DNA of 38,718 bases from a virus. The position numbers and the translations under genes are program-made. Shown here piece by piece: positions 2,557 to 10,711 of this stretch. The DNA is taken from positions 1-38,718 of IMG/VR virus record IMGVR_UViG_3300029989_000080, one strand, 5' to 3'. The notes beneath the pieces were generated by a model. It saw nothing but the letters and a program-made list of their open reading frames with translations. It ran no database searches and had not been told where the DNA came from. The stretch's first letter is position 1, and each line of letters opens with the position of its first letter.

Positions 2557-3014
2557 ACACCGAAGACGACCAGGGGAAGCCAGGCAAGCCGGCAAAGGCC
2601 TACAAGCCAACGGCGAATCAAGCGAAGATTCTCGAAGTCATGCTCAACCCGGATTGCCGATTTCTCGGCGTCGGCAAACAATGCGAGCTCGCCGGCGTCG
2701 AGCGGTCCGTCCATTACCGGGCGTTTCGAGATCCGGAATTCGTCGAGCATTACCGGAAGGAATCCCGGGCGCTCGTCGTCCGTGCTCTCGGCCCGGTCAT
2801 TAACGCGCAGATCCGGGAAGCTCTCGGCGGGAGCACTCCCGCGGCGAAGGTGATCCTCGGCATGGCCGGCGAGTATAGCGAGAAGCAAGACGTCCGGATT
2901 CTCGACAAGAACGGCGAGGCGCAAAGCTTCGGCGGCATGGCGCAAATGAGCGACGAAGAGATCGAGGCGGAGTTAGCAAGATATGAGCGCATCGGAAAGG
3001 CAACTAAAGCTTGA
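2553..3014 (+). CDS. terS: terminase small subunit
   Basis: 153 residues, immediately upstream of and overlapping the large terminase. After a basic Pro/Lys-rich start there is a helix-turn-helix region ('LGVGKQCELAGVERSVHYRAF') followed by a long helical oligomerisation region ('VVRALGPVINAQIREAL...PAAKVILGM'). This is the pattern of HTH-type small terminases that recognise the packaging site and hand DNA to the motor. The start at 2553 is fixed by the ATGA overlap with the metallopeptidase gene. Its last 32 bases overlap terL. Confidence 0.85.
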   Translation: MNTEDDQGKPGKPAKAYKPTANQAKILEVMLNPDCRFLGVGKQCELAGVERSVHYRAFRDPEFVEHYRKESRALVVRALGPVINAQIREALGGSTPAAKVILGMAGEYSEKQDVRILDKNGEAQSFGGMAQMSDEEIEAELARYERIGKATKA

Positions 3015-4611
3015 GCTATTGGATCGCCGGCGGAAGGCGATCCTCAAGGCTTCGCGTGATAGTTTTTGGGCGTTTTGTGTAAACGACTCCCCGACGTTCT
3101 ATTGTGCTAAAAACTGGCATTTGCATTTGATATGCGAAGTCCTTCAAGCACTATACGAGCGCCGTTTGACTAAGGCGTGGTTTCGCCAGGTATGCGAAGA
3201 GCTCGCGCCCGAATGGTTTATCATTACCGTCGATTGGGATCGCCTCGTCGACGGCCGGGTCTATACTCAACTAATCCAGAATCTCCCGCCCCGCGTCGGC
3301 AAGTCGCGGACCCTCACGAACTTTTGCAAGTGGATATTAGGGAAGGACCAATCGAACAAGATAATCACTTGCTCTTACAACGACGATTTGGCTCAATCCT
3401 TTTCCAGATACACGCGCGACGGGATCACCGAAAAAAAGAATATCCCCTCTCAAATAGTCTATTCGGACATTTTCCCCGAGGCGAAGATCAAGGCCGGCAA
3501 CGCTTCATTTAAAGAGTGGGCTCTTGAGGGGCAGTTTTTTAACTACAAGGGCGCCGGCGTCGGCGGGTCGATCACCGGCAAGGGGGCGAACGTGACGATC
3601 GTCGACGACCCCGTCAAGGACGCCGAGGTCGCTTTCAACGCTAACGCTCTTGATAAAATTTGGGCGTGGTATACCGGGACCTTTCTCTCGCGGCTCGAAG
3701 ACGGGACCGAATCCGACAACGAGGAGAACGCCGAGGACGGGACCGACGGCGGGATCGAGATCGTCAATATGACCAGGTGGGCGAAAGGGGACCCTTGCGG
3801 CCGACTCCTCGAAGGCCCGGACGCGAGCCAATGGTTTATCTTGAAAATGGAAGCCTATTATAAAGAGCCCGACGTCATGCTTTGCCCCTCGATCCTCAGG
3901 CGCCGCAAGTATGACAGTCTTTCCCGAATGATGGACGAGGCGATATTCCAAGCCAACTATCACCAAGTCCCGCTTGACTTGAAGGGCGTCCTTTATGGAT
4001 CTTTCAAGCTTTACGACGACCTTCCCCGGGACGCGAACGGCGCGCCGGTATACGAAAAGATCATCGCCTATGGTGACACGGCCGACGAGGGGAGCGATTT
4101 CCTTTGTGTACCGATTGCGGCACTGTATCAAAAAGAGCTTTACTTGATCGACGTCCTTTACACTAAGAACGGAATGGAAACGACCGAGCACGAGACAGCA
4201 AAGATATTATTCGACAACAAGGTCGACGAGGCGACGATCGAGTCGAACAACGGCGGGAAAGGATTCGCCCGAAACGTCGAGAGGATCTTATGGGAACAAT
4301 TCAAGACCAGGACACCATATATCAAGTGGTTTCACCAGAGCCAAAACAAAGTAAGCCGGATAATGATCGGCTCGACCTATATCACGCAACACATGTATTT
4401 TCCAAGAAACTGGAAAGACCGCTTCCCCGAGTATTACAACGCTATGACCCGCTATGTCCGCGAGGGCAAGAACAAGCACGACGACGCGCCGGACGCGACG
4501 ACCGGGCTCGCCGAGCTCGTCATGGATCGCGGCGACATGGGGCTCTTTGATTATTACGAGGAGCAATATAACAAGATCATGGCGGCGAAGGCCGCGGCCG
4601 GTCAAGCTTGA
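2983..4611 (+). CDS. terL: terminase large subunit
   Basis: 542-residue packaging motor: N-terminal ATPase plus C-terminal RNase H-like nuclease. The Walker A variant is 'PPRVGKS' (Lys107), as in T4/P22-type terminases with PPRHGKS. Walker B is 'VTIVDD' (about 204-209). The nuclease half has 'YGDTADEGSDF' (Asp365), 'ESNNGGKGFA' and 'HDDAPDATTG' (Asp500-504), matching the acidic active-site residues of the family. Length is normal. It is the last gene of the rightward early run; its 3' end overlaps the convergent RHH gene by ten bases, so no dedicated terminator fits between them. Confidence 0.96.
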   Translation: MSASERQLKLELLDRRRKAILKASRDSFWAFCVNDSPTFYCAKNWHLHLICEVLQALYERRLTKAWFRQVCEELAPEWFIITVDWDRLVDGRVYTQLIQNLPPRVGKSRTLTNFCKWILGKDQSNKIITCSYNDDLAQSFSRYTRDGITEKKNIPSQIVYSDIFPEAKIKAGNASFKEWALEGQFFNYKGAGVGGSITGKGANVTIVDDPVKDAEVAFNANALDKIWAWYTGTFLSRLEDGTESDNEENAEDGTDGGIEIVNMTRWAKGDPCGRLLEGPDASQWFILKMEAYYKEPDVMLCPSILRRRKYDSLSRMMDEAIFQANYHQVPLDLKGVLYGSFKLYDDLPRDANGAPVYEKIIAYGDTADEGSDFLCVPIAALYQKELYLIDVLYTKNGMETTEHETAKILFDNKVDEATIESNNGGKGFARNVERILWEQFKTRTPYIKWFHQSQNKVSRIMIGSTYITQHMYFPRNWKDRFPEYYNAMTRYVREGKNKHDDAPDATTGLAELVMDRGDMGLFDYYEEQYNKIMAAKAAAGQA

Positions 4612-4784
4612 TTATCGAACCCCTTCTCGATCGAGGCTCGAATCATGTACTCGGAAAGGGACAGCCCGAGAGCGGCCGCCGTTTCCTTGATCGCCTTCTT
4701 TGTCTTCGGGAAGGTGCGGATCGTGATCACCGCCCCCTCGGGTCCCTTCTTTGCGCCGGACCCCTCGCGCTTCCCGCCCCTCAT
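4602..4784 (-). CDS. small ribbon-helix-helix protein
   Basis: 60 residues on the minus strand. The start 'MRGGKREGSGAKKGP' is the basic Gly-rich leader often seen on small phage DNA-binding proteins. After it comes a beta strand ('AVITIRTF') and two helices ('KTKKAIKETAAALG', 'LSEYMIRASIEKG'), the shape of a ribbon-helix-helix repressor. It is coupled to the upstream methyltransferase by an ATGA overlap, so it may autoregulate that pair. Its 3' end runs into terL from the opposite side. Confidence 0.72.
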   Translation of the reverse strand: MRGGKREGSGAKKGPEGAVITIRTFPKTKKAIKETAAALGLSLSEYMIRASIEKGFDNQA

Positions 4785-6247
4785 TGTTCATATCTCCCGA
4801 AATAGTCGATTACCATTTGAATCCGCGCCCCTATCCAGTGCATGACGGGGACCGCCATAGAATTACCGAGGGCTTTATATCTCGGACCGTCGGGGCAGTC
4901 CTCACGCGGCTTCCGCCCCCATGCGATCAAGGTGTAATCGTCGGGGAACCCTTGAAGCCTCTCGCACTCGCGCGGAATTAGGCGTCGGACGGCCGCGCGC
5001 ATTGCAACCGCTACTTGACCGCCCCCATTTGCATGAGATCCAGTAAAGCCCATAGCCCGAAGCGTCGGCGATGTAGCGCCGGCGTCGGCGCCGTAGTCTT
5101 TACAGCTAAAGGCGACAGGGACGAGCGGCGTCCCCCGTCCCGTCCCGTCTTCGGATGCATCGAAGCCTTCTCCCCGTAGGGTGTGCGTCACAATGGGAGC
5201 CTCATGATTGCAGTTAAGGGTTGTCCCTATCCCTATCCCTATCCCTATCTCGGCCGAGGCTTGCCCGGTAGCCATGCAGATTACGTTTTCATGGCTATCC
5301 TGCTCCCTGGCGCGGAGCGTCCCAAGTCCTTCTTGCCAGAACCCGGCCCCGGTTGTATGGTGCGGGATGCAGTAGCCGTCCTCCCAATCCTGCTGCCCCC
5401 ACCCTTGACCGTGCTTCTTGGCAGTTCCGCCGCAACTGGACATTGCGCCAACTACAGCGGGTATCAGGTGTCCTGCTTGTCCTTGGTTGTCATCAGCACC
5501 ACATGTTCCAACGCCGCAAGAAGTGAGGGCGGCAACTGGCGACCCCGTTTTGCGGCCCGCCTCAATATCCCCTCGCAAGCCTTGGAGCTCAAAAAGAACC
5601 GCTCCGGGATCGAAGTATCTTCTAGCACTTGCGATAACGAACACGCGGCGGCGTCGTTGTGGAACTCCAAAGTGTTGAGCGTCGAGGACTCGCCACGCGA
5701 GCGAGCGGCGGGGTCCAACAACCAGACCCGAGTTTCTCCACTTTCCCCCGGCTGGCGGAACGAGGGGGGCGTCAGATCCCGCAAGCGCGCCAAGGAAACA
5801 ACCAAAGGCATTATCTTTAGTTGAAAGGACTCCGGGCACATTTTCCCAGGTGACGACGAGGGGGGGGGCGTTACGGCGCTTACGTTCATTGTCGATTGCA
5901 TTTGCTAACCTCACGAATGATAGGGATAAGTTTCCGCGCGCGTCGTCGAGCGAGCGGCGCAGTCCGGCAATGCTAAAAGCTTGGCAAGGGGTCCCGCCGA
6001 CGAGGACGTCGGGGAGATCGATCCCGAGGCGGTCGAAGTGGCGGGGGCGGATTGCCGTAAAGTCACCCCACAAGGGGACGCCGCGCTTTGATGCTCCCGT
6101 CTCGCTTGCGTCAACCGCCCTTTGCCGAGCCTTGAGGACGGCGCGCGGGAACTTCTCGATCTCGGAATAAAGGACGGGCTTCCACCCGAGCGGCTCCCAT
6201 GCTACAGACGCCGCCTCTATGCCAGAGCACACAGAAAGGAATTTCAT
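4781..6247 (-). CDS. DNA (cytosine-5) methyltransferase
   Basis: 488-residue C5 methyltransferase with the motifs in standard order: motif I 'SVCSGIEAASVAW' (AdoMet site, 5-17), motif IV 'GGTPCQAFS' with catalytic Cys88, motif VI 'ENV' (135-137), motif VIII 'QRRRR' (197-201), motif IX 'RRLIPRECERLQGFP' (421-435) and motif X 'GNSMAVPV' (461-468). Residues about 240-410 form a large target-recognition region with repeated 'TL..' modules and an Ile-Gly repeat. It probably protects phage DNA from host restriction. It lies against the late-gene direction between terL and portal, which suggests a separately acquired module. Target sequence unknown. Confidence 0.95.
   Translation of the reverse strand: MKFLSVCSGIEAASVAWEPLGWKPVLYSEIEKFPRAVLKARQRAVDASETGASKRGVPLWGDFTAIRPRHFDRLGIDLPDVLVGGTPCQAFSIAGLRRSLDDARGNLSLSFVRLANAIDNERKRRNAPPLVVTWENVPGVLSTKDNAFGCFLGALAGSDAPLVPPAGGKWRNSGLVVGPRRSLAWRVLDAQHFGVPQRRRRVFVIASARRYFDPGAVLFELQGLRGDIEAGRKTGSPVAALTSCGVGTCGADDNQGQAGHLIPAVVGAMSSCGGTAKKHGQGWGQQDWEDGYCIPHHTTGAGFWQEGLGTLRAREQDSHENVICMATGQASAEIGIGIGIGTTLNCNHEAPIVTHTLRGEGFDASEDGTGRGTPLVPVAFSCKDYGADAGATSPTLRAMGFTGSHANGGGQVAVAMRAAVRRLIPRECERLQGFPDDYTLIAWGRKPREDCPDGPRYKALGNSMAVPVMHWIGARIQMVIDYFGRYEQ
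5225..5248 (-). repeat. hexanucleotide tandem repeat in methyltransferase
   Basis: Four perfect copies of CCCTAT (ATAGGG on the coding strand) encode Ile-Gly four times (residues 334-341) within the target-recognition region. Six is a multiple of three, so copy-number change would lengthen or shorten the protein without breaking the frame. Confidence 0.95.
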
Positions 6248-6533: not shown

Positions 6534-8087
6534 ATGTCGGAACGAGCGGCGAACGGCGGCGGGAAAGTGACCGAGATTCTCCCGTCCTTCATACAACGCG
6601 CGATCCAGGGGGTCCGCTATGCAGTCGAGGGCGTGACCCCTTCGACGTTCTTCGGTCCCCTTCAACCTCTCGCACCCCAGGCCCAGGAAACCGCCGGCCG
6701 TCAATTCGATTATCCCGTCGGCGTCAATATCCACATTCAACCGAGATCGACCGAGGGCGTCAGCTTCGCGCAGCTCCGGGCGCTCGCGGACAATTACGAC
6801 TTGCTCCGGATCATCATCGAAACCCGGAAAGACCTCCTTTGCTCGATTAAGTGGAAATTCCAGGCGACCGACCCGAAGGCGGCGAAGACGGACGACCCCA
6901 GGATCAAGAAGCTCGAAGCCTTCTTTAAGAGCCCGGACCGCGAGCACGACTTTCAGACGTGGTATCGAATGATTCTTGAGGATCTCTTCGTCGTCGACGC
7001 TCCGGCTCTCTACGCTCGAAAAACCCTCGGCGGGATCACTTCGGCACCGGCGCCCTATTCCCTCGAAGTCGTCGACGGGACCACGATCACCCGCAAGATC
7101 GGCGCCGACGGCCGGACCCCCTTCCCGCCCGACGTCGCATATCAGCAGATCTTGAAGGGAATCCCCGCGGCCGACTTCACCCGGGACGAGCTCCTTTATT
7201 GCCCCCGGAATGTCCGCTCTCACAAGCTTTACGGTTATTCGCCCGTTGAGCAAATAATCATGACGGTCAATATTGCGCTTCGCCGGCAAATGCACCAGCT
7301 CGAATTTTACACCGAGGGCAACGTCCCCGACTTGCTCATGAAGACGCCGGACACTTGGAACCCGGACCAGATCAGCAAGTTTCAATTGTTCTTCGACGCA
7401 CTCACCGACACTGGGACCAGGCGCAAGGCGCGATTTATCCCGGGCGGGATTGATCCCTATGACACGAAGCAAAAGGAATTAAAGGACGCTTTCGACGAGT
7501 GGCTCGCGCGGATCACTTGCTTTTGCTTCTCGATCTCGGCGCAACCTTTCATCAAAGAGAACAATCGCTCGACCGCGGAAACGGCCGCGGAAGCGGCGAA
7601 AAAGGAAGGGCTCGAACCTATCCTTAACTGGACGAGGTCGCTCTTCAATCGGATCATTTGGACGTTTTTCGGGTGGGATGATATAGAAGCGGCGTGGGAT
7701 GTCGGGAAAGAGCTCGACCCGGACATTCAAAGCCAGATCGAGGACCGCGACATAAAGAACGGGAGCCGGACGGTCAACGAGGTCCGCAAGGATCGCGGAC
7801 AAGAGCCGGTTAAATTCGGAGACGTCCCGATCATCTACGGCGCGACGCCGATCCGCCTCGAAGACGCCGCGGCCGAGCCGATCGAACCCGAAGAGCCGAC
7901 CCCGCCCGTCGTCGTCCCTGGCGCCCATGCAGTACCAGGCGAGGCGAAGCCGGCGATCCCCGCGGCGAAGGTTGAGCCCGGGAAAGAGAAGGACCTCGAA
8001 GCGCGCCTCGCGGATCTCGCGGACCAGGTCGAGCGGCTCAAAAAAAAAAGCTTAAACCGATCAACCGAAACCGCCCGGCTGTATTAA
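6534..8087 (+). CDS. portal protein
   Basis: 517-residue portal, the dodecameric ring through which DNA enters and leaves the capsid. Family signs include the N-terminal 'FAQLRALADNYDLLRIIIETRKD', 'VDGTTITRKIGADGRTP', 'LLYCPRNVRSHKLYGYSPVEQII' and the stem/clip part 'FSISAQPFIKENNRSTAE'. The start ATG follows TAGGGGGA. The last part (about 450-505) is a Pro-rich linker and a short coiled coil ending in 'VERLKKK'. The gene then crosses a run of ten A residues and ends 12 codons later. That run permits a -1 shift into the MuF frame, giving a portal-MuF fusion of about 808 residues. Confidence 0.92.
   Translation: MSERAANGGGKVTEILPSFIQRAIQGVRYAVEGVTPSTFFGPLQPLAPQAQETAGRQFDYPVGVNIHIQPRSTEGVSFAQLRALADNYDLLRIIIETRKDLLCSIKWKFQATDPKAAKTDDPRIKKLEAFFKSPDREHDFQTWYRMILEDLFVVDAPALYARKTLGGITSAPAPYSLEVVDGTTITRKIGADGRTPFPPDVAYQQILKGIPAADFTRDELLYCPRNVRSHKLYGYSPVEQIIMTVNIALRRQMHQLEFYTEGNVPDLLMKTPDTWNPDQISKFQLFFDALTDTGTRRKARFIPGGIDPYDTKQKELKDAFDEWLARITCFCFSISAQPFIKENNRSTAETAAEAAKKEGLEPILNWTRSLFNRIIWTFFGWDDIEAAWDVGKELDPDIQSQIEDRDIKNGSRTVNEVRKDRGQEPVKFGDVPIIYGATPIRLEDAAAEPIEPEEPTPPVVVPGAHAVPGEAKPAIPAAKVEPGKEKDLEARLADLADQVERLKKKSLNRSTETARLY
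8040..8050 (+). other. A10 slippage site, portal/MuF
   Basis: Ten A residues (8040-8049) followed by G; the zero frame reads CTC AAA AAA AAA AGC. A -1 slip here enters the MuF frame (AAG CTT AAA CCG), which is open from before the A run to 8959. Either ribosomal slippage on AAA AAA or transcriptional slippage on the A tract would work. An eleventh A in the real DNA would give a plain in-frame fusion. Confidence 0.65.
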
Positions 8088-8959
8088 AGGCCCGGGGCAA
8101 GGCCGGCAAGATTTTAAAGTCGTTCTTTCAGAAGGCCGCGAAGGACATCGCCGAGCAGATCGGCAAGCTTTGCCATTTGCCGGACACCGACGAAGTCGCC
8201 AGGCTCACCGACGAAGAGAAGGCCGAGAAGCTCGCCGAGCTCCGGGCGAAAATCGCCGACATCGAAAGCGGGGAGCTCGATCGGATCGTCGCCGAGGTCG
8301 ACCTCTCCGGGTGGTCCGTTTTGATCGAGCCAATGGAAGGCCTACTCGACAAGGTCGCCAAAAACGGGAGCGCCGCGGCCCTCTTGCAAATCGGGGTCGA
8401 GGATCAAGAACATTTGACGGATCTCCTCAACGAGCGCGCCCTCTCCTTCGCGCAGGACCGCGCGGCCGAGCTCGTCGGAATGAGGAACGCCGGCACGAAG
8501 GAAAACCCGGAATGGATCGAAAACCCCTCGGCAAATTGGGCGATCACCGACTCGACGCGGGACATGATCCGCTCGGACGTCTCGACCGCGATCAACGAAG
8601 GATGGAGCGCGCAACACCTGGCGAACGAGCTCGGCGAGAACAACCCGGCCTTTTCAGACTACCGGGCGGAAATGATCGCGAGGACCGAGATCCGGAAGGC
8701 CGACGTCGAGGGCAACATGACGGCCTACAAAGCGAGCGGGATCGTCCGGGGGAAAGAGTGGATTTGTGGAAGTGAACACGACGACGACGACGAATGCACC
8801 GGCAACCAGGACCAAGGACAAATTGGCCTCGATGAAAGCTTCGAGAGCGGCGACGACGCGGCTCCGGCTCACCCTAACTGCATTTGCGATGTTTTGCCGG
8901 TTTTACTTGACGAGCTGCAGGGCGACGAATCTTCGGGGGGAGATCCGGAAGCCGATTAA
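8048..8959 (+). CDS. MuF/SPP1 gp7-like head morphogenesis domain
   Basis: Minor head protein of the Mu F / SPP1 gp7 type, which binds the portal and is packaged in the capsid. The C-terminal half shows the signature 'RAEMIARTEIRKADVEG', then 'DDECTGNQDQGQIGLDE' and the closing 'PAHPNCIC' Cys/His motif. The frame is open back through the portal A10 run. Between the run and residue 'MEGLL' (8333) I find no ATG or GTG in this frame; the only alternative is a TTG at 8177 with no ribosome binding site. It is therefore most likely made as a frameshifted portal extension. A TTG-started 260-residue product remains possible. Confidence 0.85.
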   Translation, partial: KLKPINRNRPAVLKARGKAGKILKSFFQKAAKDIAEQIGKLCHLPDTDEVARLTDEEKAEKLAELRAKIADIESGELDRIVAEVDLSGWSVLIEPMEGLLDKVAKNGSAAALLQIGVEDQEHLTDLLNERALSFAQDRAAELVGMRNAGTKENPEWIENPSANWAITDSTRDMIRSDVSTAINEGWSAQHLANELGENNPAFSDYRAEMIARTEIRKADVEGNMTAYKASGIVRGKEWICGSEHDDDDECTGNQDQGQIGLDESFESGDDAAPAHPNCICDVLPVLLDELQGDESSGGDPEAD

Positions 8960-9364: not shown

Positions 9365-10711
9365 ATGGCACAAAGGGCGGACAAGATCCGGGGCGACGCG
9401 AAGCTCTTCGTCGACTTCACCAGGACCGACGACGAGGCGCGCATGGTCTATGGATACGCGACGACCGAATCGCTCGACTCTTACGAGACGGTGATCGACC
9501 TCGGGAGCGTCGAGAAATGCCTTCCCGATTATCTCAAGTGGCGCAACGTCCGCGAAATGCACCAACCGAGCGCCGTCGGGACCGCGGACGAGATCACCCT
9601 CGACGAAAAAGGGCTTTATGTCGGGGTCCACGTCGAAGACGACCAGGCATGGAGAAAGGTCAAGTCGGGCGTTTACAAGGGCTTTTCGATTGGCGGAAAG
9701 CGCGATTATCAAGTCGGGAATCGGATCTTTATCAAGAGGATCAACGAGATCACCCTCGGCGATCGCCCGAGCAACGAGGATTGCACGTTCGACACGTTTC
9801 GCATTTTCCAGACAGAGGAGGCAGAAGACATGAGGATCTTAACAGCAGAGGCGAAGGCGGCGATCGAAGCAACGATCACGCGGCTCGCCGTGGAACGTCC
9901 CCAGGACGACGACATTCGCAGGTATGCCGGCGAAGAGGTCTATGATGCGAGCCGGGCAATGTACGCTCTCAGCTCCGTTACCGACCTTTTCATGTCGGAA
10001 GCCGGCGAGGTCGAGCCGAACGCCGACCAGGTCGCGGCGCTCTTAACCGTGATCCAGAATCTCAAGGTCTTTATCGCGTCCGAGATCATGGAGAACAACC
10101 TCGTCACCTACCAGGCGACCCCCGTCGAGGTCCCGGGCGAAGTCATGACCGACATCGAGCTCACGGCCGCCCCTGGCGACGTCGAGCGGATCGGCGCGGC
10201 TCTCTCGAAAAAGAACGTCGAGCGGGTCCAGGCGATGCACGATCACGCGGCGGACATGGGGGCTTGCTGTAAGGGTGCCGGCAAAACGGCCGGCAAGACG
10301 ACCAGGATCGCCGCAGGGGGCGACAAGGTCCTCATTGTAGGCAATGACCAGGACGAGAACGTCGTCCGGATCTCGGGGCTCCTTGGCGCCGCCGGGATGG
10401 TTTTCGAGATCACGACCGACGACGTCGAGCGGATCGCAGGACTCGGCGCCGATTCGATCTTTCGGGTCGACGGCCTCGACATGGAGATCCCCGGGATCGA
10501 AGGCGCAAAAACCGTGATCAAGACCCTCGTCGAGCGGCTCGTCCCCCTCGAAGCGGCTCCGGCTCCCGCGAAGGGCGTCGTCAAGGTCGTCGGGAAAGAG
10601 CAGGACGTCGACAGGATCGACGCCGGCAAAGAGGAGAAGGTCGAAGCGGCGACGGACCCGAAAGACGCGATCCTCAGGATTCACCAGGGCGGCGGCATCG
10701 TCAGGATATAA
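9365..10711 (+). CDS. XkdF-like prohead protease with scaffold region
   Basis: 448 residues. The first about 165 match the XkdF-type serine protease of phage prohead maturation: 'MVYGYATTESLDSYETVID', His66 in 'REMHQPSAVG' and Ser108 in 'YKGFSIGGK', followed by 'INEITLGDRPSNEDC'. The rest is an extended acidic helical region with 'NVERVQAMHDHAADMGACC', a motif I associate with XkdF proteins, and an 'IVGNDQDENVVRI...DDVERIAGLG' segment that may act as scaffold. This is longer than a bare protease, which fits a protease-scaffold fusion. Start after GGGAGGGCGGG. Confidence 0.82.
   Translation: MAQRADKIRGDAKLFVDFTRTDDEARMVYGYATTESLDSYETVIDLGSVEKCLPDYLKWRNVREMHQPSAVGTADEITLDEKGLYVGVHVEDDQAWRKVKSGVYKGFSIGGKRDYQVGNRIFIKRINEITLGDRPSNEDCTFDTFRIFQTEEAEDMRILTAEAKAAIEATITRLAVERPQDDDIRRYAGEEVYDASRAMYALSSVTDLFMSEAGEVEPNADQVAALLTVIQNLKVFIASEIMENNLVTYQATPVEVPGEVMTDIELTAAPGDVERIGAALSKKNVERVQAMHDHAADMGACCKGAGKTAGKTTRIAAGGDKVLIVGNDQDENVVRISGLLGAAGMVFEITTDDVERIAGLGADSIFRVDGLDMEIPGIEGAKTVIKTLVERLVPLEAAPAPAKGVVKVVGKEQDVDRIDAGKEEKVEAATDPKDAILRIHQGGGIVRI

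Follow-up and report, generated by a model that had tools for sequence, protein, structure and literature searches.

A probable programmed slippage site, an adenine run recurring among relatives, at the junction of phage portal and MuF coding sequences

Two bacterial genes provide the closest described precedents for expression through a run of adenines. In Thermus thermophilus dnaX, transcriptional slippage on a run of nine A's (A9) gives tau and gamma, which share an N-terminus, and the other frames carry early stops. In Citrobacter rodentium tssM1 an A11 run lies 28 nt before the stop, adding one A brings back a long C-terminal domain, the product ratio matters, and a slip rate of 20-25% was reported (PMC4256274). 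The usual outcome of slippage on A runs is a gain of A's (PMC4256274, PMC5009743); in many bacteria A9 is prone to slippage, and A8 has been called non-slippery for bacterial RNA polymerase (PMC1088944). Among phages, the lambda G/GT tail chaperone, the T7 10A/10B capsid and SPP1 17.1/17.1* each supply a virion or assembly protein in a short form and a C-terminally extended one, in fixed ratio, from ribosomal sites with other sequences, and none of these concerns portal or MuF. As for the proteins themselves, virion portal rings have twelve subunits. The SPP1 portal, gp6, is a dodecamer (PMC6316719), and each capsid has 1-2 copies of its MuF protein, gp7, bound to the portal (PMC5576092), made from a separate gene and attached non-covalently. 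Elsewhere portal and MuF are fused in one continuous ORF, as in the family phrog_2662 and in Microbacterium phage subcluster EA3 and cluster EB (PMC7302621). A remark accompanying PRFect (PMC10885494) noted frameshift predictions on MuF-like genes that are fused in other genomes, but it concerned MuF with a VIP2 toxin, not portal with MuF, and gave no site or conservation. No report of slippage or frameshifting between portal and MuF was found in the literature searched; subscription papers lay outside that search, and the absence is not proof.

The locus considered here lies in IMG/VR virus record IMGVR_UViG_3300029989_000080, of which positions 1 to 38,718 (38,718 bases) were analysed and are called the window. 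Portal and MuF come after the large terminase gene (2983-4611) and before head genes. A protein encoded at 9365-10711 gives weak matches to head-maturation proteases, and connector proteins come next. Between terminase and portal, on the opposite strand (4781-6247), is a DNA cytosine methyltransferase-like gene in which length might vary at two places, a G9 run (5860-5868) and a short GI-dipeptide repeat. The portal gene (6534..8087, plus strand as for all features that follow) encodes 517 aa in the 0 frame and matches PF04860 (E 6.8e-15). Near its 3' end are ten A's (8040..8049), the sole run of at least eight A's or T's in the window, read in the portal frame as AAA AAA AAA AGC, three lysine codons, and containing the tandem slippery heptamer A AAA AAA in frame. 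The 0-frame tail after the run (8050..8087), SLNRSTETARLY, ends at TAA (8085-8087), 12 codons past the last AAA, and is overlapped by the MuF frame. The latter, in the -1 frame relative to portal, is open from 7976 to 8959 following an upstream TGA, has codon periodicity, and is expected to be translated from 8048 on, extending portal. Its N-terminal part (8051..8176), LKPINRNRPAVLKARGKAGKILKSFFQKAAKDIAEQIGKLCH, contains an I-x-R-x-R motif and no start codon, and the remainder (8177..8959) carries the Phage_Mu_F domain (PF04233, E 1.6e-7). The run and frames are direct observations. The preliminary description of the window had placed the ten A's, the -1 MuF frame and the portal end 12 codons on, and had stated that the MuF frame lacks ATG or GTG until 8333; all of this held, with the addition that TTG codons at 8177 and 8321 precede that ATG.

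Both frames match the single profile phrog_2662, the portal frame over columns 15-479 (E 8.6e-76) and the -1 frame over columns 485-709 (E 1.8e-20). The family's defining order, portal domain then MuF domain in one profile, is met, and because the two frames match successive parts of it, the window resembles a portal-MuF fusion gene broken at the A run; whereas the described fusions are continuous, this one would need a slip. A coding-sense A9-A10 run and two putative products with a common N-terminus are shared with T. thermophilus dnaX, as are early stops in the other frames in the case of fused relatives; however, the window has a phage structural gene, in which the longer product would need the slip, as in mxiE or tssM1. 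As in tssM1, the run is placed just before a stop (35 nt in the window) and an extra A would restore a long C-terminal domain, but tssM1 is one interrupted gene in one species, whereas this site recurs in many phages and joins two modules that are often separate. A run of about nine or more A's or T's in a coding region, expected of transcriptional slippage sites, is satisfied by A10. Recoding of the lambda G/GT type is defined by tail-chaperone genes and does not apply, the genes being portal and MuF. The mechanism would be of a known kind, while in the papers searched there appears to be no description of it at this place, of its conservation in a phage group or of its not depending on DNA phase.

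Programmed slippage at A10, with either polymerase or ribosome as the slipping machine, is very probably the explanation of this arrangement, although no RNA or protein measurement is available. Most transcripts or ribosomes would keep the portal frame through A10 and stop 12 codons on, giving the 517-aa portal, and a fraction would shift to -1 to give a predicted portal-MuF fusion of 505 + 303 = 808 residues. The slip would be the only ready route to full MuF, and through the fusion the portal ring would carry a limited number of MuF modules. Production of both proteins, and their ratio, are inferences. The likeliest event would be addition of one A by RNA polymerase, an A11 mRNA being read in the -1 frame. 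Slippage would also account for why automatic annotation of such loci gives a portal gene and, after it, a MuF frame that has no start codon.

Comparison with relatives provides most of the support. Related portal loci numbering 360, from viral-contig scans, a bacterial-genome scan and four annotated records, were merged at 95% identity into 172 clusters, 5 of them too short to use. With the junction defined as the 300 nt following the portal domain, and expectation taken from the remaining DNA of the same loci, runs of A>=9 were found at the junction in 31/172 clusters against 0.04 expected (an excess of about 730-fold), and runs of A>=8 in 33/172 against 0.47, with A9 or A10 in 31 of the 33. 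Outside junctions, 1.18 Mb contained one A9 and nothing longer, compared with 31 A9-A10 runs in the 50 kb inside, so that the criterion of a site conserved yet rare elsewhere, as for programmed transcriptional slippage, is met. For reference, the broken-run version of the A10 site was defined as AAGAAGAAG. An alignment of this junction in related genomes had been called for in the preliminary description, and the run does recur at the same place in 33 clusters. That description requires two corrections, the first being that the run is a family-wide feature, which lies in frame within a fused portal-MuF gene in 19 clusters, against 14 that are split.

In the 14 split clusters (A>=8) the portal frame stops 2-20 codons past the run, and the long downstream frame is -1 in 14/14 and +1 in none, a bias that is plainly established. 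The -1 frame encodes MuF in 13/14, including L269 (PF04233, E 2.5e-10, checked separately after being missed by an offset filter), and an ADP-ribosyltransferase in 1/14 (L080/L128). The opposing view is that a homopolymer error in assembly or sequencing, or a pseudogene, conceals what is really an A11 within an ordinary fusion gene, and the fused gene is in fact the commonest arrangement among relatives. Against this, a second IMG/VR contig is identical to the window over 5.7 kb, A10 included, though its independence as a sample has not been established; run length is constant across contigs within each cluster; random indels would shift all 14 split cases one way with P 1e-4; and a clade of five lineages (L033/L060/L089/L090/L092, 72-92% identical) retains both A10 and the split, with low dN/dS downstream. 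A missing A in the assembly, which the preliminary description had kept open, is on these grounds very unlikely.

The two arrangements have interchanged during evolution. About 9 changes are needed to account for the split state on the portal tree, no fewer than 6 of them forced by supported branches, and L239 (split, A10) has L216 (fused, A9) as its sister; since split and fused interchange while the run persists, the run is better conserved than its phase. In the 19 in-frame clusters a slip either way would truncate, a stop being reached in most cases only a few codons on. Early stops in the alternative frames, evaluated in 15 of these 19 clusters against elsewhere in the same genes, gave KS P values of 0.0004 for +1 and a marginal 0.05 for -1. 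DNA phase variation, by which replication slippage would toggle fused and split alleles within a population, could be invoked, as both phases occur across the family and runs of 9-10 are mutable. It is very improbable, however: no run-length variation was seen in any multi-contig cluster, the L222/L237/L238/L357 group of isolate genomes among them, the L033 clade remains stably split, and the +1 phase, which such variation should reach, was never seen.

Clusters without a run include 53 with fused portal-MuF and 19 with separate MuF genes, and so a dual product is not universally required. Named phages gave no match to the window at the DNA level, and at the protein level named relatives are distant only: portal and MuF form a single gene in THSA-485A (with A9), in Brevundimonas phage Polewnik (no run) and in a Herbaspirillum plasmid record (A7). 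That record (L274, NZ_CP034394.1 16055-23272) is a 43-kb 'plasmid' of Herbaspirillum seropedicae AU13965 with terminase as well as portal-MuF, and is likely a phage-plasmid.

It could also be argued that the run does no more than code for a lysine-rich linker joining portal to MuF. Relatives that lack a run still have K/R-rich junction peptides, and the basic linker found at the same place in many such homologues counts against slippage, in that part of the A-richness could stem from the linker peptide. As a full explanation the linker is nonetheless very unlikely, for KKK occurs in 0/20 of the no-run fused peptides examined and in 7/11 of those with a run, all-AAA codons serve even where the genome seldom uses AAA (5% in L222, 6% in L252, 9% in L128), and a lysine linker cannot account for an out-of-frame MuF.

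Evidence that the -1 frame is coding from the run onward bears on where MuF translation begins. GC content of the window's MuF frame at codon positions 1/2/3 is 0.52/0.38/0.74, with the periodicity already apparent in 8051-8176, before any start. An [IVL]-x-R-x-R motif stands a few codons past the run: fused homologues read it in the 0 frame, and most split cases in the -1 frame, ahead of any start codon. Substitution in the -1 frame was low at nonsynonymous sites between L089 and L090 (dN 0.028, dS 0.362) and between L033 and L092 (dN 0.089, dS 1.03), and in this L033 group also over the first 40 codons, ahead of any start in these genes. MuF codons ahead of any start codon are under purifying selection. 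The first ATG/GTG/TTG is 23-59 codons past the run in 10/14 split clusters, the first ATG as many as 124, and the simplest route to residues that precede any start is entry from the portal frame.

Alternatively, MuF could be made as a protein of its own, with translation initiating inside the frame at TTG 8177 or ATG 8333 through coupling or reinitiation once ribosomes have reached the portal stop; the A run would then be incidental. Most MuF phages do have portal and MuF as adjacent separate genes (PMC5576092), and some relatives have ordinary overlaps, for example L057, with an ATG at the portal stop. But the first start in the window is 42 codons into coding, conserved sequence and has no recognisable ribosome-binding site, and the roughly 730-fold excess of A>=9 would remain unexplained; we consider this reading very unlikely. 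Together, the run excess at the junction, the uniform -1 direction and the selection before starts make error, pseudogene and separate MuF initiation all improbable. The earlier proposal of slippage on the A run to a fusion of about 808 residues is supported by the same comparison: 33 clusters, 14/14 in -1, the motif and selection.

Which machine slips is less certain, as the -1 outcome fits both a ribosome moving back one base and the addition of one A. In a ribosomal -1 frameshift, lysyl-tRNAs in the P and A sites would slip on A AAA AAA or A AAA AAG in a faithful A10 mRNA, with the same outputs. The direction seen in 14/14 split cases is that of ribosomal slips, and the in-frame heptamers in these runs are good ribosomal sites; E. 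coli dnaX uses A AAA AAG. (That gene is discussed in PMC5009743.) Opposed to this, a heptamer would suffice for the ribosome, yet the split genes have A8-A10 and never A7. No RNA structure above background was found downstream or upstream (hairpin) of the run across 29 loci (downstream mean z +0.3 to +0.4; pseudoknots were not modelled), and upstream Shine-Dalgarno-like tetramers were present at only 5/29 loci, inconsistently and not in the window, so that the stimulator expected of ribosomal -1 sites, an upstream SD or downstream structure, is lacking. The absence of these signals is an observed result. With no conserved stimulator in evidence and A8-A10 in every split gene, polymerase slippage is inferred to be about twice as probable by our estimate, and the ribosomal shift, while a serious contender, falls on the weaker side. 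The weak point of the polymerase reading is L098, split with A8 only, as A8 is usually not slippery.

A7 runs occur in 11 fused clusters and in no split gene. With the -1 frame open for 52 codons in several of these, and no split A7 gene, they were not counted as slip sites. In six largely related fused loci (L011, L013, L021, L206, L210, L274) the junction A7 is in the context GC/TC-AAAAAAA-G, which might be a weaker ribosomal site.

The second correction concerns the sub-stoichiometric number of MuF copies on the portal ring that the preliminary description had suggested; this remains inference, no amount having been measured, as does any role of the slip in MuF copy number. By analogy only, since no rate is known for the window, a slip rate like that of tssM1 would give two to three fusions per ring. 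SPP1 resembles the proposed arrangement in having a portal with a minor attached MuF protein, but differs in its separate genes and non-covalent attachment. The portal part of L001, a natural fusion, matches the solved portal protein 8q7d by sequence. The predicted structure of L001 is of low confidence (pTM 0.40); in that tentative model residues 419-479 are disordered, the run-encoded residues (479-481) lie where this stretch ends, and the better-predicted helical MuF part begins just past them.

If correct, programmed slippage would be a recurrent feature of a tailed-phage head gene, fixing portal-tethered copies of internal MuF or enzyme cargo, and MuF stoichiometry and covalent attachment would become directly testable. 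The in-frame and out-of-frame runs provide a natural comparison for studies of RNA polymerase slippage. A bolder reading, which could as easily prove wrong as right, is that a broad tailed-phage lineage keeps an A9-A10 transcriptional slip site where portal meets MuF as a frame-independent device, polymerase stutter giving both products in either DNA phase, with mixed portal rings and MuF (once ADP-ribosyltransferase) loaded covalently at a set low copy; RNA polymerase infidelity would then set virion composition.

Variation in what follows the portal domain was also noted. An ORF of about 985 aa in L082 (3890-6844) is a portal with a different C-terminal extension, in which no MuF domain was detected. 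In L092 (4997-6388) the MuF encoded in -1 past A10 has a long extension at its C-terminus, which includes HNHPSG and resembles RadC/JAB-like domains; Pfam reported MuF only. In L080 (5332-6108; also L128 and L176; IMGVR 3300045286_000062) the -1 frame past the portal A9 is a 256-aa ADP-ribosyltransferase domain (PF03496, E 1.8e-16), and slippage there would tether an enzyme to the portal. In L080 and L128, MuF is a separate ORF further on, after the ADP-ribosyltransferase frame.
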